From IMG/VR virus record IMGVR_UViG_3300032282_002846, positions 1 through 32,543 of that record: a stretch of 32,543 nucleotides of DNA. The stretch is one strand, 5' to 3'. The position numbers were made by a program, and so were the translations under genes. Source of the DNA: a virus. Each line of letters opens with the position of its first letter. Positions within the stretch are counted from its first letter, which is position 1. Below the pieces are notes generated by a model. The model was given only the letters and a program-made list of their open reading frames with translations, was not told the origin of the DNA and searched no databases. Of this stretch, positions 3,419 through 31,800 are shown in pieces.

Positions 3419-3664
3419 TTAGTTTTCGTCGAGGTCTGGGTCAATCGTACTGTCTTTTGTCTCTTTATTTCTTGAAGAAGATTTTGTTTTTTTAAACTCT
3501 CCTTGTTCCTCTGTTCCAATAGCATCAATAGTTTTGATTGCATGGATTAGTGTGGTTACTCCGTCTGGTGGGTTTACGTTTAGCAGTAGGTATGCTTGTA
3601 GTTTGTTCCAATCTTCGTGTGCTGTAATGGCAGCGCATAGTGATTTTACTTTTTCTGTGGTCAT
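3419..3664 (-). CDS. Small conserved-position protein in the head module
   Basis: This 81-aa protein begins MTTEKVKSLCAAI; its first half looks helical and its C-terminal third is Lys/Ser/Asp-rich and probably disordered. Its ATG overlaps the portal stop by 4 nt (ATGA), so the two are translationally coupled, and the scaffold gene follows 3 bp later. The setting suggests a head-assembly accessory protein. No family is recognised and no catalytic motif is visible. Confidence 0.65.
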   Translation of the reverse strand: MTTEKVKSLCAAITAHEDWNKLQAYLLLNVNPPDGVTTLIHAIKTIDAIGTEEQGEFKKTKSSSRNKETKDSTIDPDLDEN

Positions 3665-6556: not shown

Positions 6557-8410
6557 ATGTCAAGAATTTTTTCTGGAAACACAGGCATCCAAAAGTACGG
6601 TATCAAATTCCCTGAGAACATGGATGAGCTAGGTATAGAGCTATACTGCTACGCTATAAGCAAGGGTGAATACGGAAGAGATTACTGCAATAAGCACAAT
6701 ATAAATCTTTCAGATTTTAAATTACTCACTCCATACGAGCATTTCTTGAAGGCAGTAAAACTTCAATGGCCCACGGAAGTTTCTATTGTCAATCGAGGTT
6801 ATACCAATACTCAGTTATTGAGAACTCTGGAAGAACTCTGCAACAATGATGACATCTGTTTGGCTGGCGCGGCTTCGATGGGAAAGTCGTTTCCAGTTGG
6901 GCTTTGGGTGTACCTTGACTGGTGTTCTGCTCCGCATTGCACTTCATCTTGGGTTGCCACTACTACTCTTGGTGCGTCCGAAGATCGTATTTGGGGTATC
7001 ATTTCTAAGTTGTGGAAGTCCGCTGCTGTTCAGTTTGGTAAGCTAATCGACTATCGCCACATGATTGTTTGGGGCGGTGGGTCGAACGATGAGGATAAGG
7101 ACTATCGCAATGCTATCAAGGCTCTCGCTTTCCAGTCTGGTAACGAGGGGCAGAAGGCTATTGATACTACCCGTGGACGTAAGAATGATCGGATTAGATT
7201 AGCACTTGATGAGTTGCCCGAAATGGAACTAGGCGCGATTACTGCCCGTGTTAACTTATCCGCTAATAATGATGTAGTCTTTATCGGTATTGGAAACCCG
7301 TCTGCTGGTGACAATCCTCACACTCGCTGGGCTATGCCTAAAGGTGCTTCTAACTTTGATACTGTCAGTCCAGAGATGGATAAGTGGGAGACTGAAACTG
7401 GAGTTTGCTTGTTTTACAATGGTATGCGCTCACCAAACTTCGCCGCGCCAGAGCATGAACCATCCCCGTTCCCGTTCTTGATGGATCGCAAGAAACAAGA
7501 AGTCATGCTCAAACAGTGCTATGGTGATGAAAATGCAATTGACTATGTTCGTAACGCTATTGGCTGGTGGCCGAAATCGGGATTCGCCCAGACCATTCTA
7601 ACCGCTGATCTGATTCGTAACGCTGATACCGACGAAGAACCGCTTTGGGATTCAGAAGGTTTCCACAAGGTTGCTGGATTCGATACCGCTTTTACAGTGG
7701 GTGGAGATAGGTGTGTGCTTACTATAGCTAAACTAGGTTACATTCGCGGGACTCGTAATCGTGTTATGTGGTTGGAGAAACAAAAAGTCATTCAGTTATC
7801 TGCCCGTGAAGCTGCTGAGTTTGAAGTTGGTCTAGCTAAAGAAGTAGTCGAGCTATGCCGGGCTTCTGGAGTTCAGCCTACCAAATTTGGTATGGACGTA
7901 TCGGGTGATGGCGGTCGAGTCGCACAAGCTATCATACGCGAGTGGTTGAGATATGATGCTAGTGGTCATTCTATCGCTCTCATTTCTTCTATGGGTAAAC
8001 CTACTGAGCGTATGGCAGCAGAGGTTGATAAACGCCCATGTAAGGATGTTTACGATAGATTGGTATCAGAATATTGGTACTCAGCCTATCACGGCTTTAA
8101 GAGTCGAGTGATCTACGGGGTTGGTGCAGCGTCTGAGTTGGCGCGAGAACTTTGTATCCGTAGGTATTTCATTAAATCCAAGAAGATTTCTGTAGAGACT
8201 AAAGATGACTACAAGGGACGCACTGGATACTCGCCCGATTTGGCAGATAGCTTTCTCTACTGCCTCGAAATGTCTCGTAGGTTTGGACTAGTTTTTATCG
8301 GAAACGATAAAGCTGTTCCAACTAACCGATTCTGGGCTAGAGAAGAAAAGCCAGTCGAATCCTTCTCAGATGATGATAGCTATTCTTCTGATGAGAATGG
8401 TGACTGGTAA
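6557..8410 (+). CDS. terL: Terminase large subunit (packaging ATPase/nuclease)
   Basis: This DNA-packaging motor docks on the portal, drives DNA into the procapsid with ATP and cuts genome ends. Counting from ATG 6557 (617 aa), the Walker A-type loop LAGAASMGKS is at about residues 102-111 and Walker B (LALDELPE) at about 215-222. The RNase H-like nuclease domain shows acidic positions at AGFDTAF (D376), FGMDVSGDGG (D447) and SPDLADSF (D561, D564). A TTG eight codons upstream keeps the frame open, but ATG with the A/T-rich leader common in this genome is the better start. The end carries an acidic Ser/Asp-rich tail. It is transcribed away from the portal block, which is less usual. A palindrome copy at 8295 encodes FIGNDK. 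Confidence 0.93.
   Translation: MSRIFSGNTGIQKYGIKFPENMDELGIELYCYAISKGEYGRDYCNKHNINLSDFKLLTPYEHFLKAVKLQWPTEVSIVNRGYTNTQLLRTLEELCNNDDICLAGAASMGKSFPVGLWVYLDWCSAPHCTSSWVATTTLGASEDRIWGIISKLWKSAAVQFGKLIDYRHMIVWGGGSNDEDKDYRNAIKALAFQSGNEGQKAIDTTRGRKNDRIRLALDELPEMELGAITARVNLSANNDVVFIGIGNPSAGDNPHTRWAMPKGASNFDTVSPEMDKWETETGVCLFYNGMRSPNFAAPEHEPSPFPFLMDRKKQEVMLKQCYGDENAIDYVRNAIGWWPKSGFAQTILTADLIRNADTDEEPLWDSEGFHKVAGFDTAFTVGGDRCVLTIAKLGYIRGTRNRVMWLEKQKVIQLSAREAAEFEVGLAKEVVELCRASGVQPTKFGMDVSGDGGRVAQAIIREWLRYDASGHSIALISSMGKPTERMAAEVDKRPCKDVYDRLVSEYWYSAYHGFKSRVIYGVGAASELARELCIRRYFIKSKKISVETKDDYKGRTGYSPDLADSFLYCLEMSRRFGLVFIGNDKAVPTNRFWAREEKPVESFSDDDSYSSDENGDW
8295..8310. repeat. Dispersed palindrome, copy 3
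   Basis: TTATCGGAAACGATAA, perfect arms, inside the large terminase gene, where it is read as F-I-G-N-D-K. Confidence 0.9.
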
Positions 8411-8950: not shown

Positions 8951-9129
8951 TGATAGTAGTTTGTTAACTCTTGAAGTCCGATGGCGGCCAACTCCAGTGA
9001 GTCGTAGTCTGGCCTGAGGCTGTCTGGGAAAGGTTTTCCTCGTTCGTGCATGGGACTGGGGTTGCTGGCAGAGTAGGGACTGACTCGGACGTAGTACTTG
9101 CCGTTTTCGATTTCGAGGAAGGTGTGCAT
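8905..9129 (-). CDS. Small protein overlapping both neighbours
   Basis: This 74-aa frame (MHTFLEIENGKYYVRV) has the mix of strands and helix expected of a real small protein (SLELAAIGLQELTNYY). It starts inside the XRE gene, overlapping its 3' end by 166 bp in another frame, and overlaps the HNH gene start by 46 bp. In the shared stretch this frame looks more protein-like than the Ser/Thr/Pro-rich tail of the XRE gene. No family is recognised. Confidence 0.55.
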   Translation of the reverse strand: MHTFLEIENGKYYVRVSPYSASNPSPMHERGKPFPDSLRPDYDSLELAAIGLQELTNYYQCLVEKKVSKKRGQG

Positions 9130-9371
9130 AGTTCGATCACTTTATCTACTTGTTCTTTCTTCAGAATGCTCTTTGAATTTACTTCGATCTGGTTGATTAA
9201 CGATCCAGTCACACCGATCTTGTCACCCAGTTCCCTGACTGTCATTCCTAGCTTCTTGCGGGTTTCCCGAAGCTGATTAGCAAAGGTCTTGCGTCCAATA
9301 GAACGAATGTAGCGAGACTGCTCATAGGCAGTCATGCAGGATTCGTAGGCTTCGTATAATGGATGCTTCAT
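8964..9371 (-). CDS. XRE/Cro-type helix-turn-helix regulator
   Basis: A 135-aa protein with a Cro/C1-type HTH at about residues 31-81: LRETRKKLGMTVRELGDKIG, then GVTGSLINQIE as recognition helix. The first 30 residues form a helical lead. After residue 82 the chain turns into a Ser/Thr/Pro-rich tail without visible fold, and another gene is overprinted there. It is the first gene of the minus-strand operon, and its predicted promoter shares a palindrome with the divergent promoter, as expected for an autoregulated repressor. It may control 9434 onward. No protease or dimerisation domain of the CI type is seen. Confidence 0.8.
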   Translation of the reverse strand: MKHPLYEAYESCMTAYEQSRYIRSIGRKTFANQLRETRKKLGMTVRELGDKIGVTGSLINQIEVNSKSILKKEQVDKVIELCTPSSKSKTASTTSESVPTLPATPVPCTNEENLSQTASGQTTTHWSWPPSDFKS

Positions 9372-9379
9372 TTCAATTA

Positions 9380-9408
9380 AAAGTAAACCAATCCTATTGA
9401 CAAGTCAA
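9380..9408 (-). promoter_or_regulatory. Predicted promoter for the XRE operon
   Basis: Minus strand: TTGACT (9408-9403), 17-bp spacer, TACTTT (9385-9380). The expected transcription start falls about 2 nt from the ATG at 9371, so the message may be leaderless, as for lambda cI from PRM. Confidence 0.5.
9397..9408. promoter_or_regulatory. Palindromic operator candidate TTGACAAGTCAA
   Basis: A perfect inverted repeat (TTGAC-AA-GTCAA apart from the central 2 bp) that contains the -35 boxes of both divergent promoters. Binding here by the adjacent XRE protein would control both directions. Only the sequence and the layout support this. Confidence 0.5.
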
Positions 9409-9425
9409 CACTTTTTTGATAGTCT
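9397..9425 (+). promoter_or_regulatory. Predicted promoter for the rightward gene
   Basis: TTGACA (9397-9402), 17-bp spacer, TAGTCT (9420-9425). The -35 is perfect and the -10 matches 3 of 6. Its start point would lie about 2 nt before ATG 9434, again giving an almost leaderless mRNA. Confidence 0.4.
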
Positions 9426-9433
9426 ATTTGCTT

Positions 9434-9811
9434 ATGGATAACACTAACGAAAACAACGAAGTAGATAAAGACGCAGAACGTATGCTTGCCGCAGTTAGGC
9501 AAACAGTTCTGATTACAAATATGTCTCTAGCTACTGCACTAAATACTGGGTTCCTTGCACAATATGAATCTGACCAAGGCATCTGCAACATGGCACTCAA
9601 ACCAAATAATACTGCTGTTGTTGCAACTACCGCCGCAACTGGACTAACAATCTACCAGTCTAACTTCTTCATCAAGGATGATGCTATCGGAGAACAACGC
9701 TGCATCTACAAATGTGAGAACGAAGATGACGCTGATGAAATCTGGGACAAGATCAATGACCAGATGTATCAATGGTCGCGGAATGAAATTAAGTCTGTTA
9801 GTCTAGAGTGA
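9434..9811 (+). CDS. Hypothetical protein divergent from the XRE regulator
   Basis: A 125-aa acidic protein beginning MDNTNENNEVDKDAERML; helical N-terminal third, a Thr/Ala-rich centre (AVVATTAATGL) and an Asp/Glu-rich C-terminal third with a possible helical segment (DADEIWDKINDQMYQW). Upstream in-frame TTG codons exist, but ATG 9434 fits the promoter position. It is the only gene between the XRE regulator and the replication block and ends directly at a palindrome copy. Position suggests an early or regulated gene; no family is recognised. Confidence 0.7.
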   Translation: MDNTNENNEVDKDAERMLAAVRQTVLITNMSLATALNTGFLAQYESDQGICNMALKPNNTAVVATTAATGLTIYQSNFFIKDDAIGEQRCIYKCENEDDADEIWDKINDQMYQWSRNEIKSVSLE

Positions 9812-10929: not shown

Positions 10930-12179
10930 TGAAAAAGACACCACTAATGAAAGTAGTCCCAATAGCCACCAAAAGCGAAGCGGCAGCGTTAGCTTTAATC
11001 GCAATAGACAGAAACATCCTCGCACAACAAACGTGGGATGTGGATTATTTCGCTCTGCCGCCTCACAGGAAGGTTTTTACTGCCCTCCAAGGGGTTCACC
11101 AGCGAACAGGGGCTTGTTGCCCGTTTTCTGCCATTGCTGAGTTAGAAGCAACAGGCGAGATCGAAGCGGCTGGAGGAGAGAACGAAGTCCATGAGATTCT
11201 TTCCACCATGAAGATTGCTTCTGGGAAGGTTTGTCAGGATATGGCGGACGATTACCGCAAGCAGTTAGTCAGAAACAAAGGATACCGCGATGTCATCAAG
11301 GTTATCGAGGAAGAAGAACCAAATATTCGCGTAGGAAAGTCTGATTTGAAGAAATTATCGGAAACGATAATGAGATGTTCAGAGGATCGGGGAGTAAAAA
11401 TCAAGCCAGTCAAAGATATTATCTTGGAGATCATCGACGAGATGGAAGGTAAGGCTAAAGAAGAGTGTTTTACCACAGGAATGATCCGATTAGACAGAAC
11501 ATTGAGGGGCGGACTGCATCATGGAGAGTTATTGACGGTAGCTTCAGAGACAGGTGGAGGAAAATCCATCTTCCTAGTCCAAGCAGCAGTAGCAAATCTG
11601 CTAAACAACAAGTCCGTTATCTTCTTTTCACTAGAAATGAACGCGAAAGACATCTTAACTCGCATGGCTTGCAACTTGGCTGGCTATCCGATCCGCGAAA
11701 GAGCAGAATATCTCAACGCAAACAAGGTAGAACTAGACGCAATCACAAATGCACTGACCAAATTGCATGGTATGCCACTTCAAATCATAGATGCCATCAG
11801 TGATATTAACGATATTGAGGCCAATATTAACCGATATGTGGGAGAAAACCGAGCAGATGTGGTTATCGTAGACTACCTCCAGATCGTATCCATTGAAGGT
11901 GTAGACAACCGAGAGAATGCTATCTCTGAGATCACAAGAAGGTTAAAAGTATCAGCATCTGTTAACAAACTCGTGCTGCTAACAGCCTCCCAGTTAAATG
12001 ATGAAGGAAGGTTACGAGAGAGCCGGGCGATTGGGATGCACAGTAATCAGATTATTTACGTTGAACATCTGAAAACTAAAAGCCAAGTGACCGTGAAGAA
12101 GAACAGGCGCGGCCCGAAAGATTACAGGATAGATATTATCATGCACGGGGAGACTTCACGCATCGAGGAGGTATTCTAA
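10929..12179 (+). CDS. DnaB-type replicative helicase
   Basis: A 416-aa RecA-fold helicase that unwinds DNA ahead of the replication fork. Residues 1-150 correspond to the shortened DnaB N-terminal domain. The C-terminal ATPase shows Walker A SETGGGKS (206-213), the SLEMNAKDILTRM motif (about 234-246) and Walker B VVIVDYLQI (311-319), followed by the TASQLN segment characteristic of DnaB. It shares one base with the initiator stop (TAATG), so the pair is translationally coupled and the upstream protein is the likely loader. A palindrome copy lies in the linker between domains (11355). Confidence 0.95.
   Translation: MKKTPLMKVVPIATKSEAAALALIAIDRNILAQQTWDVDYFALPPHRKVFTALQGVHQRTGACCPFSAIAELEATGEIEAAGGENEVHEILSTMKIASGKVCQDMADDYRKQLVRNKGYRDVIKVIEEEEPNIRVGKSDLKKLSETIMRCSEDRGVKIKPVKDIILEIIDEMEGKAKEECFTTGMIRLDRTLRGGLHHGELLTVASETGGGKSIFLVQAAVANLLNNKSVIFFSLEMNAKDILTRMACNLAGYPIRERAEYLNANKVELDAITNALTKLHGMPLQIIDAISDINDIEANINRYVGENRADVVIVDYLQIVSIEGVDNRENAISEITRRLKVSASVNKLVLLTASQLNDEGRLRESRAIGMHSNQIIYVEHLKTKSQVTVKKNRRGPKDYRIDIIMHGETSRIEEVF
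11355..11370. repeat. Dispersed palindrome, copy 5
   Basis: TTATCGGAAACGATAA, perfect arms, inside the helicase gene, read as L-S-E-T-I. Confidence 0.9.
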
Positions 12180-14671: not shown

Positions 14672-15210
14672 GCTTTGAATCAGAATACTGGGGAGACTGC
14701 TGTAATACCTTCGACGAGGATCAGAAACACTACGTCTATGCCCAATACATGGGACTACATACCGTAGGGTATTCGTTCTCTATGTCAGGGAAGTCCGTAG
14801 TAGACATAGGCGGCGGCCCAACCTCCATGTTACTGAAAACAACTAACCTAGAAAAAGGGTTGGTTGTCGATCCCCTATTATACCCTCAATGGACTTATGC
14901 TAGGTACGATGCTAAGAAAATAGATTGCTTAGTCATCCGAGGGGAAGATTTTATCGGTAACGATAAATTCGATGAAGCGTGGATTTACAATTGCCTCCAG
15001 CACACCGATGACCCAGAACTGATTATCCAAAACGCAAAACGCGCAGCTAAAATAGTCAGACTCTTTGAATGGATAGACATCCCACCCCACGAAGGTCATC
15101 CCATAGAACTAACAAAACAAAACCTAGACCAATGGTTAGCTAAGGAAGGTAGTACAGTACAACTAGCAAGGGCGGGCTGCTACGGAAAAGCCTACTACAA
15201 TATAGTATGA
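14668..15210 (+). CDS. Class I SAM-dependent methyltransferase
   Basis: A 180-aa methyltransferase with SAM-binding motif I VVDIGGGPTSMLL (about 44-56), an acidic motif II at LVVDPLL and a motif IV-like FDEAWIYNCLQHTDDP. The lack of a target-recognition domain or a (D/N)PP(Y/F) motif argues against a DNA methylase and for a small-molecule or sugar methyltransferase. Its tight coupling to the glycosyltransferase suggests it methylates the transferred sugar or its acceptor. A palindrome copy is embedded at 14951, encoding FIGNDK. Confidence 0.82.
   Translation: MSFESEYWGDCCNTFDEDQKHYVYAQYMGLHTVGYSFSMSGKSVVDIGGGPTSMLLKTTNLEKGLVVDPLLYPQWTYARYDAKKIDCLVIRGEDFIGNDKFDEAWIYNCLQHTDDPELIIQNAKRAAKIVRLFEWIDIPPHEGHPIELTKQNLDQWLAKEGSTVQLARAGCYGKAYYNIV
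14951..14966. repeat. Dispersed palindrome, copy 6
   Basis: TTATCGGTAACGATAA, perfect arms, inside the methyltransferase gene, read as F-I-G-N-D-K, the same peptide as in the unrelated terminase. Confidence 0.9.
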
Positions 15211-16215: not shown

Positions 16216-16254
16216 AGATATCACGAATATCTGATTTAAATCAATATCTGATTT
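16216..16254 (+). promoter_or_regulatory. Operator candidate with three ATATCT half sites
   Basis: AGATAT-CACGA-ATATCT (16216-16232) is a perfect 6-bp inverted repeat. AATATCTGATTT then occurs as a direct repeat at 16226 and 16243, 17 bp apart. Such clustered half sites in front of a gene suggest binding by a regulator, perhaps the gene product itself. Confidence 0.45.
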
Positions 16255-16285
16255 GAATGCATGGCACGTAGGTAAACCAAAGCAA

Positions 16286-17005
16286 ATGAAAGCAAACAAA
16301 GTAAAAACAGCGTCAGTGTCAATCGTTTGTGAATCAGTATCAATTGATTCAATGTTCAAGCGTAACTCCCTTGGATATCTCGAAAGCGGTAAAGCTTCGA
16401 GTGATATCAGCGTAGAGGATTCCGTTGGTTACGTTGTCAGCAAATTAGAGAGCGGGCAATCTGCGGTGCGCGAGGCTATCCTTTTCTCTGGATGGTTATT
16501 TAAAACCAAACCAGAGGAAGACGGGAAAGCCTTTGCCGATAAATTGAAAGAGCGTTGGAGCGGGTCGACCGTTCCCAATCTTATCAGCATAAGCAAGAGC
16601 CTATCTTTATTCGAGACTAAGGGTCTTAGTATTGCAAACGTGCGCGATCTTTACGGATTGCGGGAATGTTCAAAGCTTCTCAAGGGTGAAGACACTAGCA
16701 AACAAGCGGTTGCCTTATTAAACAAAGGAGAAAGCCCGCGAAATGTGAAAGAGAAACTTAGCCCAAAACAAGAGCCAAAACCAGAGCAAGAATCTACGCC
16801 CGTTGAAAGTGAATCGCTCGAAAATAAAGCGGCCATTCAAGAGGCCATCATTCTAACAGCGATTGAACGCTACGCGATCCTTGCTGACAATGAATCACGG
16901 TTAAAATTGACTAGACAAATCGTTTCAAAGATGAGCCTAGGGAATTATATCCTTGGTCACACGGACGCGATTAAAGCAATCCATGATCTCAAAGCGAAGA
17001 AATAA
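16286..17005 (+). CDS. Unknown 239-aa protein, possible DNA-binding
   Basis: The start is ATG 16286, because its leader GGTAAACCAAAGCAA resembles that of the gene at 20123 and the earlier TTG has no support. Residues 35-140 are helical (VGYVVSKLESGQSAVREAIL, WSGSTVPNLISISKSLSLFE); a Pro/Glu/Lys linker follows at about 158-185 (PKQEPKPEQE) and a helical C-terminal domain of 55 residues. Helical core, linker and helical tail would suit a DNA-binding or partition-type protein, but no HTH can be claimed. It has its own promoter and terminator, so it forms an independent unit. Confidence 0.65.
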   Translation: MKANKVKTASVSIVCESVSIDSMFKRNSLGYLESGKASSDISVEDSVGYVVSKLESGQSAVREAILFSGWLFKTKPEEDGKAFADKLKERWSGSTVPNLISISKSLSLFETKGLSIANVRDLYGLRECSKLLKGEDTSKQAVALLNKGESPRNVKEKLSPKQEPKPEQESTPVESESLENKAAIQEAIILTAIERYAILADNESRLKLTRQIVSKMSLGNYILGHTDAIKAIHDLKAKK

Positions 17006-17179: not shown

Positions 17180-17746
17180 TCACGCTTCCTCTTCCTCTTT
17201 CACGTTATCGGTAACGATAATTCCCTCTTCCACTTCGGCGTTGTTATATTGCGTGGCTACCACTTCCACCTCTTCCGCTCTTTGTGGCCCCGTAACGTGC
17301 AATGAAATCATCGCATTTACGCTCATCGCCTTTCTGTCTCCTACGTTCTGGTCATCCAATCCTAGTGTTCGGCGTGATGTTTTATCTAATTCTGCCAGCA
17401 CTTCCAGCCTCTCTTTCTGGTCTTTGATGTTGCCTTGCTTTTTTCTGGCTACTATCTCGGCTCTTTCATCTGCCACTTCCTTGAGCATAAAGCGTAGATG
17501 TTGCTCTGTCTGCTCTTTCATAGCATCGATGATTGTTCGCTCTATAAGCCCCGTGGACTGGGTTCTAATGAGTTGACGCTGCTTTGACCATTGCCCTTTG
17601 ATCATGACGTTTTTAACGTAGAATCTGGATAGCCCAGTAAACTCAGGCATTTTCACGATGTCCGCCACTTCATGTCCTTGGATGTATAACGATCTCACTT
17701 TATCCATGTCCCACTTCTTTCTGGCGTTCGGGGTTTTCTGTTTCAT
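17180..17746 (-). CDS. Terminase-small-subunit-like HTH protein
   Basis: A 188-aa protein. Residues 10-60 look like the N-terminal HTH of phage small terminases: KKWDMDKVRSLYIQGHEVAD, then GLSRFYVKNVMIKGQWSKQR, the last part resembling the recognition-helix/W-S-x-Q-R end of that fold. A central helical region (about 65-130) would form the oligomer core, and the C terminus is very acidic. In packaging, TerS binds the genome's pac or cos site and loads TerL. It is separated from terL by about 9 kb and reads the other way, which is unusual, so another DNA-binding role is possible. Confidence 0.55.
   Translation of the reverse strand: MKQKTPNARKKWDMDKVRSLYIQGHEVADIVKMPEFTGLSRFYVKNVMIKGQWSKQRQLIRTQSTGLIERTIIDAMKEQTEQHLRFMLKEVADERAEIVARKKQGNIKDQKERLEVLAELDKTSRRTLGLDDQNVGDRKAMSVNAMISLHVTGPQRAEEVEVVATQYNNAEVEEGIIVTDNVKEEEEA
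17205..17220. repeat. Dispersed palindrome, copy 8
   Basis: TTATCGGTAACGATAA, perfect arms, near the 3' end of the TerS-like gene, read on the minus strand as I-V-T-D-N. Confidence 0.9.
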
Positions 17747-17761
17747 GGGCGAAAATGTAGG

Positions 17762-17777
17762 GTATCGTTAACGATAA
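17762..17777. repeat. Dispersed palindrome, copy 9
   Basis: GTATCGTTAACGATAA, one outer mismatch, 15 bp upstream of the TerS-like start codon. Confidence 0.88.
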
Positions 17778-17824: not shown

Positions 17825-17853
17825 TTGACAAAGGAGGGGTCTTGTGCTATACT
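17825..17853 (+). promoter_or_regulatory. Strong predicted sigma70 promoter
   Basis: TTGACA (17825-17830), 17-bp spacer, TATACT (17848-17853): 6 of 6 and 5 of 6 matches with ideal spacing. It is the best promoter in the window and would drive ten small genes and the SNF2-type helicase up to the terminator at 22384. Confidence 0.8.
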
Positions 17854-17974
17854 ATTAATAGTCGGGGAAGAGGCAGTCTTTCAACGACAATCGCTATTTT
17901 ACAATTTAGGTTTTCAGTTTCGGTTTTTCGTGGCCTTGTCGTTCGCTTTGGGCGGCAAGGTTAATGTGGCTTGG

Positions 17975-17991
17975 TTATCGTTAAACGATAA
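17975..17991. repeat. Dispersed palindrome, copy 10 (5-bp centre)
   Basis: TTATCGTTAAACGATAA: perfect arms around a 5-nt centre, in the leader of the 81-aa gene and enclosed by GGCTTG/CAAGCC. Confidence 0.88.
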
Positions 17992-18051
17992 TCAATCGGT
18001 GACAAGCCCGTAAAGCATAACGCAAACGCAGAGTCATAACACACGAAAACA

Positions 18052-18297: not shown

Positions 18298-18533
18298 CTA
18301 CAAAAGATATCGTTTCCGATAGTGGTAAGAAGTATGTCATCCCAGTCATGTCCGATGAAGAGATGAAAGATGTGATGTTCGGCATGGGATGTCGCGGATG
18401 GTGTCTCACTTGTGGCGAGGAAGTTGATGGCGTTGAGCCTGACGCTCGTCGTTACCTCTGTGAGGCTTGTGATAACAAAACCGTCTATGGATATGAGGAG
18501 CTTCTGATCATGGACTTACTCATCATTAAGTAG
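18294..18533 (+). CDS. Small zinc-ribbon protein
   Basis: A 79-aa protein with CLTCGEEVDGVEPDARRYLC followed by EAC: two CxxC-type knuckles (C-x2-C, C-x2-C), a zinc ribbon, then VYGYEELLIM. Phage ribbons of this kind are frequent and uncharacterised; they may bind RNA polymerase or nucleic acid. Coupled to the preceding gene by a 4-nt overlap. A palindrome copy is inside (18307-18322). Confidence 0.8.
   Translation: MTTKDIVSDSGKKYVIPVMSDEEMKDVMFGMGCRGWCLTCGEEVDGVEPDARRYLCEACDNKTVYGYEELLIMDLLIIK
18307..18322. repeat. Dispersed palindrome, copy 11
   Basis: ATATCGTTTCCGATAG: core TATCG/CGATA perfect; inside the zinc-ribbon gene, read as D-I-V-S-D-S. Confidence 0.82.
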
Positions 18534-18612
18534 TTAGCTACTCTGCTCTGTTATCGTTAACGATAGCAGGGCAGCAAGCTGATTATAACCAATCAGCGAA
18601 AACACGAAACAA
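18534..18612 (+). ncRNA. Two-hairpin intergenic module B
   Basis: Hairpin 1 (18543-18574) is CTGCTCTGTTATCG/CGATAGCAGGGCAG: 14 bp with two G-U pairs and a TTAA loop, its tip being the dispersed palindrome. Hairpin 2 (18578-18597) is GCTGATT/AATCAGC. GAAAACACGAAACAA then leads into ATG 18613. There is no U-tract, so it is not an intrinsic terminator. Outer-arm wobble pairs point to an RNA structure. Confidence 0.6.
18551..18566. repeat. Dispersed palindrome, copy 12
   Basis: TTATCGTTAACGATAG, one outer mismatch, tip of hairpin 1 of module B. Confidence 0.88.
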
Positions 18613-19290
18613 ATGTATATTATACACGAAACCAACGACATTGTGGTCATAGCCACAAGAGCAAGCAAGAACATTAAGACTGGTCGCTCAATACAGATTT
18701 GGATTATGGATGCTCGTATGCATCCTACTGAATCTCGGAAAGGTGCTGACGCAGACAATCAATGTAATGGCTGTGAGTTTGCATCCAAGCAAGGTTGTTA
18801 TGTAAATGACAATCCTCTCGGTGCAATCTGGCGAGCATATCAACGTGGCTCTTATGAATATCTTCATATGGGAACACGGGAATGGCATGACTTCTTCTCT
18901 GTGCCTTACGTTCGCTTCGGTGCTTATGGCAATCCATCTCATCTCCCACTTGAGATGATTCATAGCATCACTAGCCTAGCTACTAGGATTACTGGTTACT
19001 TCCATGATTGGCATCAGATGCCAGTTGATCTAGCCAAGTCATATGGTCGTTACTTCATGGCATCTACCAATGCCGGTAATGTGGAGTATGCAAAGAACCT
19101 CGGTCTTCGCACGTTCACTGTCAGCGAGAAACCTCTCGTTAACGATATTGAATGTTTAGCAGATGCCAAGGGTCTTCAATGCTCTGAATGCGGCTTGTGT
19201 GATGGTAACAATCGCCGCTCTTCTCTTCCTTCAGTCTGGATTAACCCTCATGGTTACCAACTCAAGAAAGCTAAGGAGGCTATCGCGTGA
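18613..19290 (+). CDS. Cys-rich Gp88-like phage protein (DUF7227-type)
   Basis: A 225-aa protein. Features are a beta-rich start (VVIATRASKNIKTG), DNQCNGCEFASKQGCYVN with three closely spaced cysteines, VRFGAYGNPSHLPLE, a helix, GYFHDWHQ, and a C-terminal QCSECGLCDGNN cluster. This layout matches the mycobacteriophage Gp88-like family as I remember it; the function is unknown. Two Cys clusters could hold iron-sulfur or zinc. Preceded by module B with its AAACACGAAACAA leader and followed by a 4-nt overlap with a membrane peptide. Confidence 0.7.
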   Translation: MYIIHETNDIVVIATRASKNIKTGRSIQIWIMDARMHPTESRKGADADNQCNGCEFASKQGCYVNDNPLGAIWRAYQRGSYEYLHMGTREWHDFFSVPYVRFGAYGNPSHLPLEMIHSITSLATRITGYFHDWHQMPVDLAKSYGRYFMASTNAGNVEYAKNLGLRTFTVSEKPLVNDIECLADAKGLQCSECGLCDGNNRRSSLPSVWINPHGYQLKKAKEAIA

Positions 19291-19370
19291 GTAGAGATAC
19301 AATTATCTTCGTAGGGTTTATTCTCATATTCCAAATCACTATAATTCTATCTTATTTATGCTTGAAGTAA
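19287..19370 (+). CDS. 27-aa single-span membrane peptide (GTG start)
   Basis: GTG 19287 overlaps the previous stop by 4 nt and has the strong ribosome site AAGGAGG 8 nt upstream, in a genome where such sites are rare. The product is one hydrophobic helix (IIFVGFILIFQITIILSYL) ending in CLK. Overlaps the next start by 13 nt. Function unknown. Confidence 0.6.
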   Translation: MSRDTIIFVGFILIFQITIILSYLCLK

Positions 19371-19522
19371 CCAAGTCGAAGGCTAGGAAGCTCTTCGATG
19401 CTATCCCCAAGAAGCAGATCGGCGTATGTCGCGCCATTACTCCCAAGAAGTCTATCGTCACAATCATTACCAAGAAGGACAAGCAAGTCATCCGGGTATG
19501 TGACGGTAGATTCTATGCGTAG
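19358..19522 (+). CDS. Small basic protein
   Basis: A 54-aa Lys-rich protein beginning MLEVTKSKARKLFDAIPKKQ and ending in a strand-rich VIRVCDGRFYA. The short helix followed by strands could bind nucleic acid. Between a membrane peptide and module C; no family recognised. Confidence 0.65.
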   Translation: MLEVTKSKARKLFDAIPKKQIGVCRAITPKKSIVTIITKKDKQVIRVCDGRFYA

Positions 19523-19615
19523 TCAGACACTCTGGTGTTATCGGAAACGATAACGCCAGCAGTCTGCTTACATAGTGTAAGTAGAAAAACACGAAACAAT
19601 AAATAGAAAGAAAAC
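19523..19615 (+). ncRNA. Two-hairpin intergenic module C
   Basis: CAGAC (19524-19528) pairs with GTCTG (19562-19566) around CTGGTGTTATCG/CGATAACGCCAG (12 bp, one G-U, GAAA tetraloop). Hairpin 2 is CTTACA-TAG-TGTAAG (19567-19581). AAAAACACGAAACAA follows, then A-rich sequence to ATG 19616. Same order of parts as modules B and D with different stem sequences. Confidence 0.62.
19538..19553. repeat. Dispersed palindrome, copy 13
   Basis: TTATCGGAAACGATAA, perfect arms, tip of hairpin 1 of module C; in RNA its centre would be a GAAA tetraloop. Confidence 0.9.
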
Positions 19616-20041
19616 ATGACAAGAGAACAATACCTAGAAGTAAGAGTATATGACGAGCATTACAGCATTGAGTTAGATGATGCTACCAAAGAAATGCTGA
19701 ATGATACTTACTCACTCCATTGCGTTGGTGGCCCATTCAAATATCTCCCTGCTGGTGATGTGCTTTGTGACTATGACTATACAGCATTCCGCGAGGAGTG
19801 TAATAACTTCGCTGATCGCATGGTTAGAAATGGCGATTGGATTTATTATGATAATAACTACTGGGGTTCAGAAGTTTCGAAGTTCATAGTTGAGATCACC
19901 TCATCCATCAAGGATGTTGACCCAATCGAATGTACAGGCATCGAGCATCCCGGCTGGTATTACTTTGATTCTAGAGCAGGTTCCCAAGGGCCGTATGAAA
20001 GTGCAGAGGCTTGCTACGATCACGCTTGCGAAAATCAGTAG
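19616..20041 (+). CDS. Hypothetical acidic protein
   Basis: A 141-aa protein (MTREQYLEVRVYDEHYSIEL), acidic and rich in Tyr, Asp and Cys, ending HPGWYYFDSRAGSQGPYESA. The last part resembles short domains found in other small phage proteins, but no family can be named. It stands alone between modules C and D. Confidence 0.75.
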   Translation: MTREQYLEVRVYDEHYSIELDDATKEMLNDTYSLHCVGGPFKYLPAGDVLCDYDYTAFREECNNFADRMVRNGDWIYYDNNYWGSEVSKFIVEITSSIKDVDPIECTGIEHPGWYYFDSRAGSQGPYESAEACYDHACENQ

Positions 20042-20122
20042 ACAGACACTCTCCTCATTATCGTTTAACGATAGTGGGGAGCAGTCTGATTACATGGTGT
20101 AATCGGTAAAACCAAAACTAAA
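20042..20122 (+). ncRNA. Two-hairpin intergenic module D
   Basis: CAGAC (20043-20047) pairs with GTCTG (20084-20088) around CTCCTCATTATCG/CGATAGTGGGGAG (13 bp, two G-U). Hairpin 2 is GATTACA-TGG-TGTAATC (20088-20104). GGTAAAACCAAAACTAAA leads to ATG 20123. Differences from module C are partly compensatory (CTTACA/TGTAAG versus ATTACA/TGTAAT), supporting selection on pairing. Confidence 0.62.
20058..20074. repeat. Dispersed palindrome, copy 14 (5-bp centre)
   Basis: TTATCGTTTAACGATAG, one outer mismatch, tip of hairpin 1 of module D. Confidence 0.86.
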
Positions 20123-20758: not shown

Positions 20759-22377
20759 ATCTTAAAGCATTACTAGATTCCGTTGAGTTCTCGCAACCCA
20801 TGAACACTTCAACTAAGCGTGGCCCTCGTCTTCTTCGGAAGGCGAGCGTCACGCAAGAGTTCTGGGATATTTACCGCGAGGATCGTGAAGATTATAAACA
20901 AGCATTAGGTGACCTCGGCATCCAGCTTTCCAAGTTTAGAGACGCTTGGGAGTTAGCTTGGTGGTCAAGGGAAAACCTATCGTTTCCGATAATCCCAGCC
21001 AATGAGAAGGAACCTGAGCCTGAGATTAAGTATGATTTACCACCTCTTGCCCAACCTCAGAAGTTATTTGAGTACCAAATGACTTCTGTGCAATTGGCAG
21101 TTCGTTCTATGCTCAAGTATAATCGCGCCTTACTTGGTCATGGGACTGGGATGGGCAAGACAGCTATTGCCCTTGCAGTTGCGCGAGAACGGGGCAGGAA
21201 GGTTGCTGTTATCTGTCCTAAACCGATCACTACCGATTGGCATAGGATGGCTAAATACTTCGGCGTAGAAACCTACGAAGTTTGCGGATGGGAGTGGGCG
21301 AAGACAGGCAAGAGTAAGATTGGACAATGGACAGATGACAAGAAGAAGCACTTCCAGTTCACTCTTCCACCAGATACTGATCTTATCATTGATGAGGTTC
21401 ATCGCGCCAAAGCACAAGGTAATACTCAGAATGCTTTCATGCTACGGGATTGCGTTGTGCAGAACGTGCCTACGATTGCTCTTTCTGCGACAATGGCAGA
21501 TGATCCCACAAAGATGTGGGCAATCGGTCAGTTCTTAGGTTTGCACCAAGGAGGAAAAGACTACTTCCGCTTCCTTAATAATTGTGGATGCGTTCAGACT
21601 CAGTTCGGTATGCAGTTCAGAGGTGGCAATAAAGTTCTCAAGAATCTTCATGGTCTGATCTTCCCCGACAAAGGTAATAGACTCAAACCTTCTGATGTAG
21701 GTGATGCATTCCCAGAGACGCTCATCCAAGCCAGAGCATTTGATATGGATAGTGCCAGAGAGATAGCGAAGGAATACGAAGATGTGATGGTCAGAGTAGA
21801 ACAGATTCGTATGCAAGAGAATGCCGCCTCTTCTATGGGTGCAGTACTAGCAGAGATGACTCGCGCCCGTCAGAAGATCGAACTCTTCAAAGCACCAGCA
21901 GTATGTGCTATGGTCAAGGATTTGATTGAGGAAGGGAATAGCGTGTTCATTGCAGTCAACTTCACAGAGACACTCAAGTTCATGCAAGATCAGTTGAAGA
22001 CCACTTGCGCGATTCATGGTGGTCAGAGTGACCTTATCCGACGAGGAAATATCGATTCTTTCCAAGGTGATCGATCACGGGTGATGATTGGGATTATCCA
22101 AGCCTGTCGAGAAGGATTAAACCTCCACGATATAACTGGCAAGCATTCTAGAGTTGCTCTCATCATGCCTACCTATTCGGTCTTCGATCTCAAGCAAGTG
22201 CTAGGTAGGGTACACCGGGCTGGTGGTAAGTCTAAGTCAATCCAGTACCTCATCTACGCCGCTGGTGTAGACATTGAAGAGTCAGTCTGTAGTTCATTAG
22301 ATGCCAAGCTCAAGCGGATGGATACCCTCATGGATGGGGAGATAGATGGTTCCATATCAGTAGCACCGAAAGCCTAA
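20755..22377 (+). CDS. SNF2-type DEAD/DEAH helicase
   Basis: A 540-aa superfamily-2 ATPase. A Q-motif-like FEYQMTSVQLAV (about 105-116) precedes Walker A GTGMGKT (130-136), motif Ia VAVICPKPI, Walker B DEVH (213-216) and motif III SAT (244-246). In the second RecA lobe are FIAVNFTETLKF, a motif V-like EGLNLHD and motif VI QVLGRVHRAG. This is the layout of short phage SNF2-like DNA translocases, thought to act in replication, recombination or transcription. The N-terminal 90 residues are phage-specific. Last gene before the terminator at 22384. A palindrome copy at 20977 encodes L-S-F-P-I. Confidence 0.92.
   Translation: MNLKALLDSVEFSQPMNTSTKRGPRLLRKASVTQEFWDIYREDREDYKQALGDLGIQLSKFRDAWELAWWSRENLSFPIIPANEKEPEPEIKYDLPPLAQPQKLFEYQMTSVQLAVRSMLKYNRALLGHGTGMGKTAIALAVARERGRKVAVICPKPITTDWHRMAKYFGVETYEVCGWEWAKTGKSKIGQWTDDKKKHFQFTLPPDTDLIIDEVHRAKAQGNTQNAFMLRDCVVQNVPTIALSATMADDPTKMWAIGQFLGLHQGGKDYFRFLNNCGCVQTQFGMQFRGGNKVLKNLHGLIFPDKGNRLKPSDVGDAFPETLIQARAFDMDSAREIAKEYEDVMVRVEQIRMQENAASSMGAVLAEMTRARQKIELFKAPAVCAMVKDLIEEGNSVFIAVNFTETLKFMQDQLKTTCAIHGGQSDLIRRGNIDSFQGDRSRVMIGIIQACREGLNLHDITGKHSRVALIMPTYSVFDLKQVLGRVHRAGGKSKSIQYLIYAAGVDIEESVCSSLDAKLKRMDTLMDGEIDGSISVAPKA
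20977..20992. repeat. Dispersed palindrome, copy 15
   Basis: CTATCGTTTCCGATAA, one outer mismatch, in the SNF2-type helicase gene. Confidence 0.86.
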
Positions 22378-22383
22378 AGCAAT

Positions 22384-22419
22384 AAGCCCACAAGGAGTAA
22401 AATCCCTGTGGGCTTTTTT
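22384..22419 (+). terminator. Intrinsic terminator of the helicase operon
   Basis: AGCCCACA and TGTGGGCT form a perfect 8-bp stem around a 15-nt loop that can add an AGG/CCT pair; TTTTT follows directly. Confidence 0.9.
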
Positions 22420-22423
22420 GTTT

Positions 22424-22439
22424 CTATCGTTTCCGATAA
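22424..22439. repeat. Dispersed palindrome, copy 16
   Basis: CTATCGTTTCCGATAA, between the terminator and the stop codon of the convergent gene, ending at the base next to that stop. Confidence 0.86.
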
Positions 22440-25851: not shown

Positions 25852-28800
25852 CTATAATTTTTTAATCTGCATTACCCTTTTTGCATTACCACGAATAGCC
25901 GAGAATGAATTAGCTACATATTTCTGTGCAGTCTCCGTATCCATTTGATTTAGGATTTCCTCATTCCTAATTATAAATTCTTTCATACTTGGCCCAGCGG
26001 AAGAAATGAACTCACGTTGCTCTGCTTTAGTCATTGGAGTCTTATCTCTCCAACTCATAGACTGACTCCAGTTAGGTGGTGTAATTCCGTTTCTGTACAA
26101 TATCTCAAATGCTTGGTCTGGTTTTTCTGTAGATGTGATACGTCCCACCAATGAGAATGCACGGCGAGTAAACCCATTCTCTTGCATGATTGAATTGTAC
26201 CTAGCTGGATCACCGAAGTAATTCAAATCCTTATCTAAGAATGCCGATGAGCCGGGGAATTCTTTCAGCATATTTGTGATGTAAAGATCACCCTCCAATC
26301 TCTCATCCACCATTAGCTTTTGAATATCACGGGCAACGCCGGGGACTAGCATACGGGATATAATGTTCCTTGCGATCCCCGCGCCAGCTTTAGGCAAATC
26401 CCTAGCTTCCTTGAGTTCGATCAAGTCAGATATACCAGTTAAGAAGGATTGATCTAGTGCCGCAACAAATCCAATAGACACAGGAGATGCCAGTAATTTG
26501 AATACAGCCTCACTAACGTCACCGATTCCTTTTTCACCAGTCTTTTTTTTGAAAGCATCTGCTTCCTCTTTCATCATCTGACCCCATGATAATGGAATAA
26601 CCAGAGGGGTGAAGAGGTAAGAGACATATGTGTTTCCAAATCTTATTGAATATTTAGTCCCACCATTCTCTGACCAGATCTTATTCTGCTCTGGGTCTTT
26701 TGGCCCTTGAGAATAGAACTGAACGAATGGTCGTTCCTTATCTTGATCTTCATCATCTCCACCAGCTATTGCGGCAATGATAAATGGAACCGCTGATGCT
26801 GCTAGACCAATAGCTGATTTGATAGCTAGATCAGCAGCCTTTTCTTCCCTTCCTTTAATGAATGGATTCTTCTCTGTGCCGGGACGCAACTTGATTTTTC
26901 CTTTAAGGAGTGGGGATAATTCCACTGCCCTCATTAACCTAAACTGGCTAACGAGCGGAGCGTAGTTCAAGTTTTCATTCAATACGTTAGCGCACACGTT
27001 TGTGAATGGAATGAATAATCTAGTAACTGGATATGCATCTAGCATCTTGTTTGCAAAACTAGCAATCAGTCCAACTAAACCTTCTGATTTCTGGCTATAC
27101 ATTACCTCAAGTGAATCTTGCTCTGCAAACTCCCTCTTCTTAGCTCCTAGTCTTTGGTTTGCTAGAATCTCATTTGCTCTAATGATGATCTCTTTCTTCT
27201 TTTCTTTTGCAGAAGATTTAGATGCTTGAAGTTCAACCTCGGCTTGTCTGAATGCCGCATCGTATTGCTCTTGAGAAAACTCTGCTGCATCCAAAGATGC
27301 TGCCCTGACTTCATAAGCAACCTCTCTCATGTATGCATCAGTAGCCCTCATCATTCTCATCATTCCCCGTGGAGACATGGTATTAAGAAGAGCGTTTAAT
27401 GCTGGAGTTTGTACCCTGTCAGCACCGAATGTAATGAGATTATAGACTAACTTAGGTACGTTCTCTGGAGTGGCATTCTCAAATAGATTTCCTTTAGGAT
27501 AGATCATCATCTTCTCATCTTGTAATCCAGATGGATTAAGCCCAGTCTGCATGACGTATAAGAATGAGTTAGTTGCTGGTGATTGCTTTCCTGATACCGC
27601 TCTTGCTAGTCCGCGCATCATTGGCCCAAGGGATTTTCCTTTTGTGTAGATTGCCCATGTCGCAATGTTACCCATCAGATTGAATGAACTTCCAAGTACG
27701 TTCATAGCTTGAGTTCCTGTCTGGGAAAGAAGCGAGAAGTACCAGTAACTAGAAAGGTAATCGGTTGTCGTGAAGACTCCCTTCTCTAACATATACCTTC
27801 CCATCTTCTGCTCTTCTATGCCCCGTAACACACCTTCTGGTAGTGCAGATATTCTATCTCCCCACTCACGCAGGGTCTGAACCATATCTGGGCTGTACTC
27901 TAGGTAGCCCTTATCAAAGTTATGAGTCTGACGAAATGCCTCGTAGACTTTCATATCATCTAGCTGACCCATGTTTGCTAGTTCAATCAAGCGTTTTAAT
28001 ACTGTACGCTGAGTTCCTTTGGGTTTGATATTGTTATCACTTAGAGTTTTCGTAACACGGGCGATAGCTTGCTTTAAGTTCTCACTTTGCTGTGCATCCA
28101 CCGCTTTATTGATCTCATCTTCGACTGTCTTACTAAGTTCGGCTGATGCTTTCTCATCAAATCCTAGTTCAGTAATGATAAGTTCATTGAGCTTATCGAT
28201 AAAGTTTCTTTGATCGGAAGCAGCTAATCTGGTTAGACCTTTTAATGTCTTAGCTAGTTTGAATTGCCCCTCAGTAGTGGACAATTGTTGCATCTTGTCT
28301 TTGATAAGTTGACCGCCAGTGATCTTGCCTGTCTCCTCATCTACAATGAATCCAATTTTCTTTTCTAGAACCTTCCTTGTCTCTTCGTTCAGATAGCTGT
28401 CTACATCAGCGGTGAATTTATCTACCATCTCAGCGGTTGCCCCCATCGATTGTAGTTCAAATCGTATGTGGGTCTTGACGCTTTCTTGGGCGGCATTCCT
28501 ATGGCTACCGATGTACTGAAATAGGTCAGCGAACTTATAATCTAGGGCATTAGCTGAATCTTTAATTGCTTGTTGTCGCATTCCCTCGCTCCATTGGCGG
28601 GTAGAAAGCATATCAAAAAGGTCTTTGTAATCATCATTGAAAGCAGCGTCACTCTGGTATTCTTGGCGGATGGATTTCTTTAGCTCATCCATGAATTGTT
28701 TATATGTTTTATCGTTTCCGATAACCATACCAACTTGCTCTAAGAACTTGCCTTCACGTTTAGCTTCTTGCTTTTTAGCTTTAGGTTTCCCTTCAGCTTC

Positions 28801-31800
28801 TTGCTTTTTCTTTTCCTCTTCTTGTGCTGTTTGTTTAGCAACAGATGAGATAGCTTTATAAATCTTTTTGTATGTAGAGTTAGTATTAGAACTGCCCTTC
28901 TTAGTTCCGATTGACAAGATAGCTTTAGCTGTCTCATCAATGATCATGTTGGCAAACTTCTCTGTATTATCTCCAAACGTACTAGCACTGAAGTCTAATA
29001 GGATTTCTTGTGTCCGCTCTGTTTTCTTCCCAGAGATAGCTTTGCGGATTGAATCCCTAGCTTTCTCTGGATTCTTAATCGCCATCTTCTGTAGAGAAGC
29101 CAACTTACTAATAACCTTTGAGAGACTTGCTACATTATCAACGGCCTTCCTTCTATCTCCTCTAGCATAGGATGCGATATCATTCATATCACCGCCGATC
29201 TTTGACCATAGATTACCAATGGATTTCTGGACGTTAGACTTGTAGTTCTCTACTGCCATTCCATATCCGCCTGTCTGGCGAAGTGTCTTTGCAAAGTTAA
29301 GAGTTTGTCCAGCAGCTTGCATTAGTTTAACTACCGCCTTTGTTAAACCAAACTCGATTGCTGGCATACTCAATGCAATCCTTGATCTCTCTTCAAAAGA
29401 AGCATCAGAGTCCATGATCATCTGCCTGTACGTTGGAGCAACCGTATTAAGTAGTGGTATTATGTTAGCCAACTCCTTTTGACTTAATCCATAAGTAACT
29501 ACTGGGTCACCATTTATATCTCTCAATGAAAGGTTAGATATGATATCAAAGAAAGATGCATCTGGATTTCCCTTCAGTACCTTATTGAATGCATTCAGTG
29601 CTTCAGTGTGGGCAGATGTAGTATACAAGTTCACCGCTTTCGAGAACGGAGATACTAAAGACTTAGCATACGTCTTCCCTTTAAGAGTTGTCCTAGATAC
29701 ATAAGGTCTACCACTCTTATCTTCCATTGGCTTGAGATCATTGATCAGTCCCTCAATGTCATTAATGATTTGTTGGGTAATCTTCTTCTCAATCTTTACT
29801 GATCTAGCAGATGGTTGTGGCGTTGCCCCTGCCCTCGCTTCGATTGCTGGTTCAGTTATCGTTTCCGATACTGCTTCAACTGGTAAGGATTCCTCAGTAG
29901 TTGCGGTAACTTCGGTAGGTTCTGCTTTCACTTCACCTTTAGGTTGAGCGGAAGAGTAATCTTTAAACTCGTAGTTAGCTTCTCCCTTCACGATACCATA
30001 CTCATCGAGGATAGCGTTGATGGCGTTCTTCATCTTCTCTACTTCTTTAGTAGAGGTTCCCTTGCCAAGGTATCTTGTGATGCTATCTCGGACTACTCTA
30101 AGTGCATTGAGGATGGAATTCTTGAGCGAGATGATAGCTCCCTTATCTTGGTCTGAGAATGCTTCTTTCTCGGCTTGTCTGATAGCGTTTAAATCTTCTG
30201 TGATCTGGCCTGTACGCACACGCTGGATGACCATACGCATGAACTCTTGGGAGAAGGAAAGATCATCGAGGAGCTTTGAGTTATCGTTTAGGTAAGCATT
30301 GGAAACGCCCGGAAGTGCATTCGGGTTAGTGCGCTTCACCTCTTTAACAATATCGGAGAGTCGCTTTACCACATATTCTTGCTCTGAAAGTTTTGGGTTC
30401 TTGAGAGCTTTGTATTCGTCTTGGATACCTTGGAACATGGAGAGGTGGATGACTTCCTCTTCCAATTTCTTAGCTGCTGCCCGTGACTCTTGATCTAATG
30501 CAGCATCCTTACTTGCGGCTCTCTGTTCCCCTTGAACAGTTTTACCAGTCATTTGATTGATGTCTGGAACTACAAGATACTTCTGTCCGTTAAGAAATGT
30601 AGCTCTGTATGTACCAGTGTCGGCGGCTACTTGCTTGCGCCCAGTTAGCTTACCGAATTCCTCGCTAGTAATGACTTTGGTGTTCGTTCCAGCTAGGAAC
30701 CCTGCATTGTTTGCAATGCCCGTTCTGATGGCGTTCTTGAGCTTCTGCGCCCTCTTGCTGAAGACTGGTATCCTGCCGACTACCTTGTCTGTAGCAGACA
30801 TGAATGCTTTGAGTATAGGGCGATCTGCATAGAACTCTCCAGCTAACATCCGTGGACGTGTCGGTGTCGTTGTTCTACCCGATGGTGGTAGACCCATCTC
30901 ACTGGTTGGAGTTGTTCCTTGTGGTTCGACCCCTTGTTCGATTGCTGTCAGTTCAGCGATCTTATTCTGCTCTGCGAAAATTTGTGTGTTTACCCTATCA
31001 ATACCGGCCTTATCATTATCATCCAAAGCATCAAACTCTGTGTTGAGTTCTTCGATCTTTGTCTTGGCTTCTTCGATAGTAGTGGAGGGTGTTGCAGCTT
31101 CTGCGACTGCTTCTACTGGTGGCTTTATCGTTAACGATAATCCTTCAACCTCTTTGCTTACGGAAGCTAGGTCTGTTTTCTTTTTATCCAATGCAGCTTG
31201 CGCGTCGATCCTCTCTTGTGATCCTTCTGCCAATGTAGCCAATGCTTCTTCATCCATCCCGATCTCTTCAGTAAGAGATTCGATCTTGTTATCAAGCTCC
31301 ATCCGTTTGGATGCAGCTATGCTTACAGCAGGGATTTCTTGGTCATTACCAGTTATCTTTTGGTATTGAAGCTGTAGATCAGTTAATGCTTTCTGCCTAT
31401 CGGATATATCAAAGCGAAGTTTCTGCGCTCTAGGATCGTTTGGCTCCATTGCATCCAAGTCTGATCTAAGGTTCTCGATGGCATCTTGATTTCTTGTTAT
31501 TTCAGTTGATAATGCCATTGCGGCAGGGTTACCACTTGGAGTCTCTAAATCTCTAGCGGCTTTATCAGCAGCTTCATTTATATCTTTCTCTGCTTTTTTC
31601 TCTGGACTCATTGCTTCAAGTCCACCAAGTGAACCGCCCATTGCAAACCCAGCAGCACCAGCCATAGCTGCCCGTGATACTGCTCCTTGAAATGTAGGAA
31701 CATCATAACCTTCTCTTTGCAATGCTAGGTTAGTAGCTATTTGCTCTTGTCCCTCTTGTGGGATTTCAATAGCAGCTTCTTCAACCCCTTTCTTTAAGAT

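Follow-up and report, generated by a model that had tools for sequence, protein, structure and literature searches.

A recurrent two-hairpin RNA module, usually carrying a palindromic DNA site, between the early genes of an uncultured phage

In the early region of phage T7, the early cistrons are separated by intergenic hairpins that are RNase III sites. To our knowledge, those sites have neither an embedded DNA operator nor a second hairpin that shares a strand with the first. T4-like phages have promoter early stem-loops (PeSLs; Arbiol 2010 and Comeau 2014, as cited in PMC4503421), which, going by that citing article, unite an early promoter with a stem-loop terminator. Systems of dispersed DNA sites have also been described. 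On plasmid RK2, the ParB-family protein KorB silences genes from about a dozen dispersed palindromic operators (PMC11790492), and Noc has dispersed NBS sites, TATTTCCC-GGGAAATA (PMC7383237). The genomes of cluster A mycobacteriophages each contain ~30 dispersed repressor sites, the stoperators, which are asymmetric 13-bp sequences lying mostly in one orientation relative to transcription (PMC6550527, PMC9283540).

In this study, we undertook a comparative analysis of an element of ~80 bases that recurs between swappable early genes of an uncultured phage. The window, that is, the whole stretch of DNA that was analysed, is an IMG/VR virus record of 32,543 bases. Its relatives were 11 viral contigs with the neighbouring helicase at 86-96% identity, to which pattern scans added more distant ones. 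All of the evidence is comparative, and the structure energies are model values. Rfam gave no match in the window above the gathering score, and a literature search returned no description of such an element. With regard to the host, a search of 84,980 genomes of bacteria and archaea with alignments of the terminase and of the protein P318 gave no relative.

Structure and covariation of the intergenic modules

The early-gene gaps that follow the stop codons at 18533, 19522 and 20041 have the same layout in the window sequence, in which the stop codon is followed by hairpin 1, hairpin 2, an A-rich leader and an ATG (modules C, D and E, Table 1). The original prediction, made from the window alone, had the positions and order of these three gaps correct. 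It had also placed an outer stem in two of the members; the stem is present in both, but the limitation to two does not hold, as the gap of module C has UAGCU/AGCUG, making three of three. A feature absent from that prediction is that hairpin 2 and the outer stem of hairpin 1 have a CUG in common, as in module C. At its tip, module D has the palindrome with a GAAA loop. On the + strand, the folding energies of the three gaps relative to shuffles gave z = -8.05, -6.72 and -5.69, versus only -3.1 to -4.1 on the - strand. The gap at 17968-18051, suggested as a looser fourth member, was rejected, being no better than shuffles as a whole (z = -1.05) and having no covariance-model match.

Table 1. 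Coordinates of the modules, selected palindromes and associated features in the window
Feature	Position	Strand	Description
Palindrome in terminase gene	8296..8309		Intact in 71/71 diverged relatives
Palindrome in dnaB-like gene	11356..11369		Intact in 32/32 diverged relatives
Palindrome upstream of ORF 17180-17746(-)	17763..17776		Just upstream of the ORF; conserved partly in relatives
Sigma70-like promoter	17825..17853	+	TTGACA-N17-TATACT; 11/12 matches; upstream of first early gene
Palindrome TATCGTTAAACGATA	17976..17990		Leader of first early gene; 10-bp hairpin, not a module
Module C hairpin 1	18535..18581	+	Outer stem UAGCU/AGCUG; internal loop ACU/CA; upper stem CUGCUCUG/CAGGGCAG; palindrome at tip; covariance model 72.3 bits
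Palindrome TATCGTTAACGATA	18552..18565		Module C tip
Module C hairpin 2	18579..18596	+	CUG-AUU / AAU-CAG; loop AUAACC
Module C A-rich leader AAAACACGAAACAA	18599..18612	+	Precedes ATG 18613; without Shine-Dalgarno
Module D hairpin 1	19524..19566	+	CAGAC/GUCUG, ACU/CA, CUGGUGU/ACGCCAG; covariance model 86.1 bits
Palindrome TATCGGAAACGATA	19539..19552		Module D tip; intact in 10/10 diverged relatives
Module D hairpin 2	19564..19584	+	CUG-CUUACA / UGUAAG-UAG; loop UAG
Module D A-rich leader AAAACACGAAACAA	19586..19599	+	Upstream of ATG 19616
Module E hairpin 1	20043..20088	+	CAGAC/GUCUG, ACU/CA, CUCCUCA/UGGGGAG; palindrome tip; covariance model 88.1 bits
Palindrome TATCGTTTAACGATA	20059..20073		5-nt spacer; module E tip
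Module E hairpin 2	20086..20106	+	CUG-AUUACA / UGUAAU-CGG; loop UGG
P318	22725..23681	-	ParB/Noc-like helix-turn-helix fold (predicted); proposed palindrome binder

The module is a covarying, strand-specific RNA with two overlapping stems, and its compensatory changes, together with G-U pairs on one strand only, place it among structured RNA families. An RNA structure with wobbles and compensatory changes had been predicted, and support for it was strong and strand-specific in both the stem pairing and the covariance model. The 36 distinct hairpin 1 sequences of a set found by their sequence ends alone, with pairing not required, were all fully paired (7/7 in the upper stem and 5/5 in the outer stem, against a background of at most 4/7). 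In 23 distinct stems, 276 of 276 cells were standard pairs on the + strand, including 32 G-U and no A-C. Those 32 G-U pairs would be A-C mismatches on the other strand, and selection therefore acts on the coding-strand RNA. Across 38 aligned modules, 98.8% of cells were paired (85.9% when shuffled) and 13 pairs had changes on both sides (77 both-side cells versus 16 shuffled). The covariance-model search of related contigs that had been suggested as a check returned ~70 coding-strand copies in the 17 sources searched, many of them among the aligned sequences used to build the model. Every strong match (44-94 bits) lay on the + strand, against a top score of 28 bits on the - strand, and two further copies were found beyond the 17 sources, in the contig L218.

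Across the family, the outer stem of hairpin 1 is YAGAC/GUCUG or, in the type represented by module C, AGCC/GGCU or AGCU/AGCU, and it leads through an internal loop, AC(U/A)/(C/U)A, into a freely varying upper stem and then the tip. The stop codon lies 0-2 nt before the first base of hairpin 1 in 57 of 62 copies. Hairpin 2 directly adjoins hairpin 1 with no spacer; 28 of the 30 distinct cases have a hairpin 2 whose 5' arm runs on through the CUG at the end of the hairpin 1 outer stem, with CAG (9), CGG (8), UAG (6) and UGG (5) as partners, which are all of the four standard ones. Since this CUG is common to both stems, the outer stem and the long form of hairpin 2 are mutually exclusive. The energy gap calculated between the two folds was 1.7 ± 1.9 kcal/mol in 45 copies (model values). 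Potentially, a terminating ribosome picks between the two folds; it may also be that the two-fold switch is without function.

The covariance model found no modules in the early regions of the sister phages L266-L275 and L277, which have the terminase, P318 and the palindrome in common with the window. Therefore, the module is separable from the palindrome and is distributed more narrowly. The terminases of these sister phages are up to 97% identical to that of the window, which looks like a mosaic between the sister-phage group and the module-bearing group. Two divergent modules were observed in a more distant phage (L105, at 7853 and 9206), whose homologue of P188, the product of ORF 17180-17746(-), is 37% identical; one has a different tip and the other a large hairpin insertion that itself bears the palindrome. 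Apparent modules lacking a palindrome in L125-L127 were rejected as chance matches to a loose pattern.

The palindrome as a DNA site and its candidate binder

Independently of the modules, the palindrome is conserved as a DNA site throughout the genome. Exact TATCGN4CGATA occurs 19 times in the window versus 0.03 expected, and there are 22 palindromes when N5 spacers are included, 4 and 5 nt being the only spacer lengths found. The centre is nearly always K..M, so that the site is TATCGKNNMCGATA. Half of the palindromes (11 of 22) are intergenic, though intergenic sequence makes up 8% of the window (P = 4e-7, using a hand-made gene list). About 15-32 palindromes were present in most of the larger records of the group, most of which may be fragments. 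Palindrome identity is usually 95-100%, compared with ~80% for the flanks, and high conservation is seen in genes as well as in the intergenic copy at 1988, which is intact in 25/25; those at 14952, 15823 and 16057 are not conserved. A role for the palindrome in RNA only was rejected because its centre occurs in both orientations and the site is found in genes on both strands. An ORF of 2173 aa (25852-32373, -) was observed to contain three internal palindromes, two of which are intact in the few alignable diverged relatives.

The original prediction described the module as built on the palindrome. This is accurate in that the palindrome is usually embedded in the module, but the palindrome is also an independent site across the genome, and in some modules it has moved to hairpin 2, the tip then being of the GNRA type or of another kind. 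In 55 distinct modules (a count that excludes one spurious row), the palindrome was intact at the tip of hairpin 1 in 43, intact in hairpin 2 in four, degenerate in six and absent in two, and no module had two copies; that is, 47 of 55 had exactly one intact palindrome. Modules with the palindrome in hairpin 2 have a GAAA, GCAA, GCGA or UCGC loop capping hairpin 1, examples of such GNRA- or UCGC-capped modules being L006 1192, L009 8835, L010 4978, L015 8455 and L106 9392. Structure and site are thus separable, and usually superposed.

Of the roles raised for the modules, processing, translational control and the binding of an RNA- or DNA-binding regulator are each conceivable for the RNA layer. 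For the palindrome layer, a DNA-binding regulator is the favoured one, and the palindrome is probably the landing site of a phage-encoded protein resembling chromosome organisers. The candidate is P318. In a co-occurrence that is confounded by common descent, all 61 of the 61 contigs fetched by P318 alignment contain the palindrome, and TATCG-N4-CGATA was the top gapped palindrome found de novo in most of the divergent P318 contigs tested; control palindromes of similar composition occurred 0-4 times in 1.1 Mb. P318 was present in full or large part in 24 of 27 palindrome-rich records, as a fragment at a contig end in G013, and not at all in G015 and G020, both partial, the records being metagenomic fragments so that absence of a gene from one is weak evidence. 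It was not found in six unrelated records. In the palindrome-rich record G022, P318 was the only one found of four candidate DNA-binding proteins.

When modelled with AlphaFold2 (pLDDT 76), P318 had as its best matches Spo0J-parS (Z 8.8, a moderate match near the level of common helical arrangements), ParB (8.3), Noc-NBS (8.2) and KorB-operator (5.0), with SopB also among the best (Z up to 8.8 overall), and the matches span residues 106-259 only. The top Foldseek match was Noc (E 0.12). P318 gave no sequence-profile match to ParB and no match to the ParB CTP-binding domain, and no GERR-like motif was seen by eye (alignment A4). The stretch YSTVS, in the recognition helix of the predicted helix-turn-helix, is invariant down to the homologue of 27% identity in G022, a record that carries nine palindromes. 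By analogy with KorB on RK2 and with Noc, we infer that P318 is the protein that recognises the palindrome and that it serves to organise the genome of the phage or to silence it.

Other proteins were considered. P188 came into question for the palindrome in its promoter, but several relatives have this copy in degenerate form, searches of G022 and G027 gave no homologue, and the fold gave no useful match. P250 (16253-17005) was present in nine records only and was not detected in G022. Both 16253-17005 (+) and 17180-17746 (-) encode conserved proteins with no family match, the product of the latter having a predicted N-terminal helical, possibly helix-turn-helix, domain followed by long helices. 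Elsewhere in the window, at 8964-9433, a CI-like HTH_3 gene (-) is divergent from ORF 9416-9811 (+), with a palindrome of its own, TTGACAAGTCAA, inside promoter-like sequence in the spacer, and genes for a DnaD-like loader, DnaB and RusA follow; this region is possibly a temperate-phage switch.

Gene cassettes and alternative explanations

Clustering of the genes flanking the modules revealed that the same upstream family precedes different downstream families. What lies between one conserved upstream family and a conserved 225-aa gene family varies with the phage, being a different gene or none. The modules delimit gene cassettes that are exchanged between phages. In L010 (3447-3620), tandem modules at 3447 and 3543 are only a few codons apart with no gene between them, as if the intervening gene had been lost. 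A scan with the sigma70 consensus, which covers that promoter type only, identified no promoter-like site in the modules, and a host-promoter role for them was rejected on that basis. The original prediction that they are not intrinsic terminators was borne out by a scan that found none in the region and no terminator-like site in the modules. The region's best promoter-like site, at 17825-17853, is the probable start of the early transcript. An inverted repeat at 22376-22438 (81% complementary, then a T-rich stretch), located after the helicase gene and adjoining a palindrome, appears terminator-like by eye.

The exchange of genes raises the question of whether the modules are mainly recombination cassettes like the T4 PeSLs, in which DNA repeats are kept for gene exchange and the structure is a by-product. 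Genes between modules are indeed swapped and even lost, as at the tandem pair in L010, but the upper stems vary freely and yet pair, with G-U and never A-C, which selection for recombination does not explain, and the modules have no promoter or terminator; we consider this explanation unlikely. A T7-like early region, in which the modules are RNase III-type processing sites, the cut hairpins give protected mRNA ends and the palindrome is a mere tip, would account for long stems conserved as RNA that are intergenic in an early operon and lie directly after stop codons. It is possible, if doubtful, that this is the case. Against it, the palindrome is conserved genome-wide and in genes without extended stems, so that the tip needs its own explanation, and the upper stem and tip together come down to ~11 bp in some members, which is short for the enzyme.

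Two further alternatives concern the palindrome. Its retention in phages whose other proteins have diverged considerably could indicate that the phages exploit the site of a host nucleoid or regulatory protein and have no dedicated binder of their own. That is improbable given that the palindrome accompanies a single phage protein in all 61 of the 61 loci retrieved with it and that six large unrelated viral records, which had come up through chance matches, carry zero or one site each. Still less probable, in our estimation, is that the palindrome is a stoperator of the small CI-like HTH_3 protein (8964-9371, -), halting transcription at early-gene boundaries in lysogeny. Such a protein is encoded beside replication genes, and the dispersed sites resemble mycobacteriophage stoperators (PMC6550527), but its own divergent promoter holds a different palindrome, TTGACAAGTCAA, rather than TATCG and palindromic sites have no direction. 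In addition, the CI-like protein was undetected in the palindrome-bearing G022, as well as in G018 and G019 (possibly incomplete), in all of which P318 was found.

Proposed function and comparison with known systems

The explanation we prefer, with a probability of roughly 55%, is that the module fuses the mRNA structure of a cistron boundary with a DNA operator of the KorB/Noc-like kind, each gap being a composite boundary on which two functions are superposed. The RNA structure is directly supported by covariation, and the function we propose for it is deduced from sequence. The early mRNA would fold right after the stop codon into hairpin 1 and hairpin 2, with an unpaired A-rich leader for ribosome loading ahead of the AUG. 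The outer-stem CUG can pair either with hairpin 1 or at the base of hairpin 2, giving two near-equal folds, and a ribosome that terminates at the neighbouring stop codon would mask the 5' arm, shifting the RNA to the fold with the long hairpin 2. The likely role of this structure would be isolation of neighbouring cistrons, potentially through mRNA processing, end protection or ribosome-dependent refolding, with independent translation starts, and cistrons isolated in this way could be swapped as cassettes. In the DNA layer, the site itself is plain from its conservation, and comparison of genomes suggests its binder. The tip or hairpin 2 would hold one 14-bp operator, TATCGKNNMCGATA, probably bound by the ParB/Noc/KorB-like P318. 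The protein would coat the genome of the phage or silence it, and through the module copies every early-gene boundary would receive one operator. Two distinct modules without any palindrome count against the fused reading. A more elaborate version, a dual-coded element whose bases serve in the DNA as operators of a ParB/Noc-like genome organiser and in the mRNA as a bistable, ribosome-sensitive cistron boundary, with the copies turning early genes into exchangeable cassettes, is tentative.

The modules represent a new RNA family with no Rfam match and strong covariation, located at junctions of early-gene gain and loss, and P318 and TATCGKNNMCGATA form a putative protein-site pair that recurs in upwards of 60 viral contigs from a group of uncultured phages. 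Like the RNase III sites of T7, the modules are intergenic hairpins between early cistrons. By architecture, the T4 PeSLs are the closest system as they are described in the citing article: they too are repeated stem-loops in the early-gene gaps of a phage hot spot whose genes are shuffled. On the same description, the modules differ in that no promoter or terminator was found in them, and they consist instead of a pair of overlapping hairpins, the A-rich leader and a putative DNA operator. The likeness to KorB would lie in the ParB-family DNA-binding domain (a predicted fold in P318) and the dispersed palindromic sites; the site sequence is another one, the phage has ~15-30 sites per genome with many in genes, and no CTPase domain or ParA or KorA partner was identified for its candidate binder. 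As with Noc, there are an orphan protein, here with a predicted ParB-like fold, and many dispersed palindromes of 14-16 bp, whereas the site sequence differs, the genome is that of a phage rather than a chromosome, and P318 showed no recognisable N-terminal CTPase part. The cluster A stoperators are similar in number, but the sites described here are palindromes, and most of those in the early gaps form part of RNA hairpins. If confirmed, the pair would be a phage version of the genome-wide site systems of KorB and Noc, and also a case of a DNA operator and an RNA hairpin superposed in the same bases.
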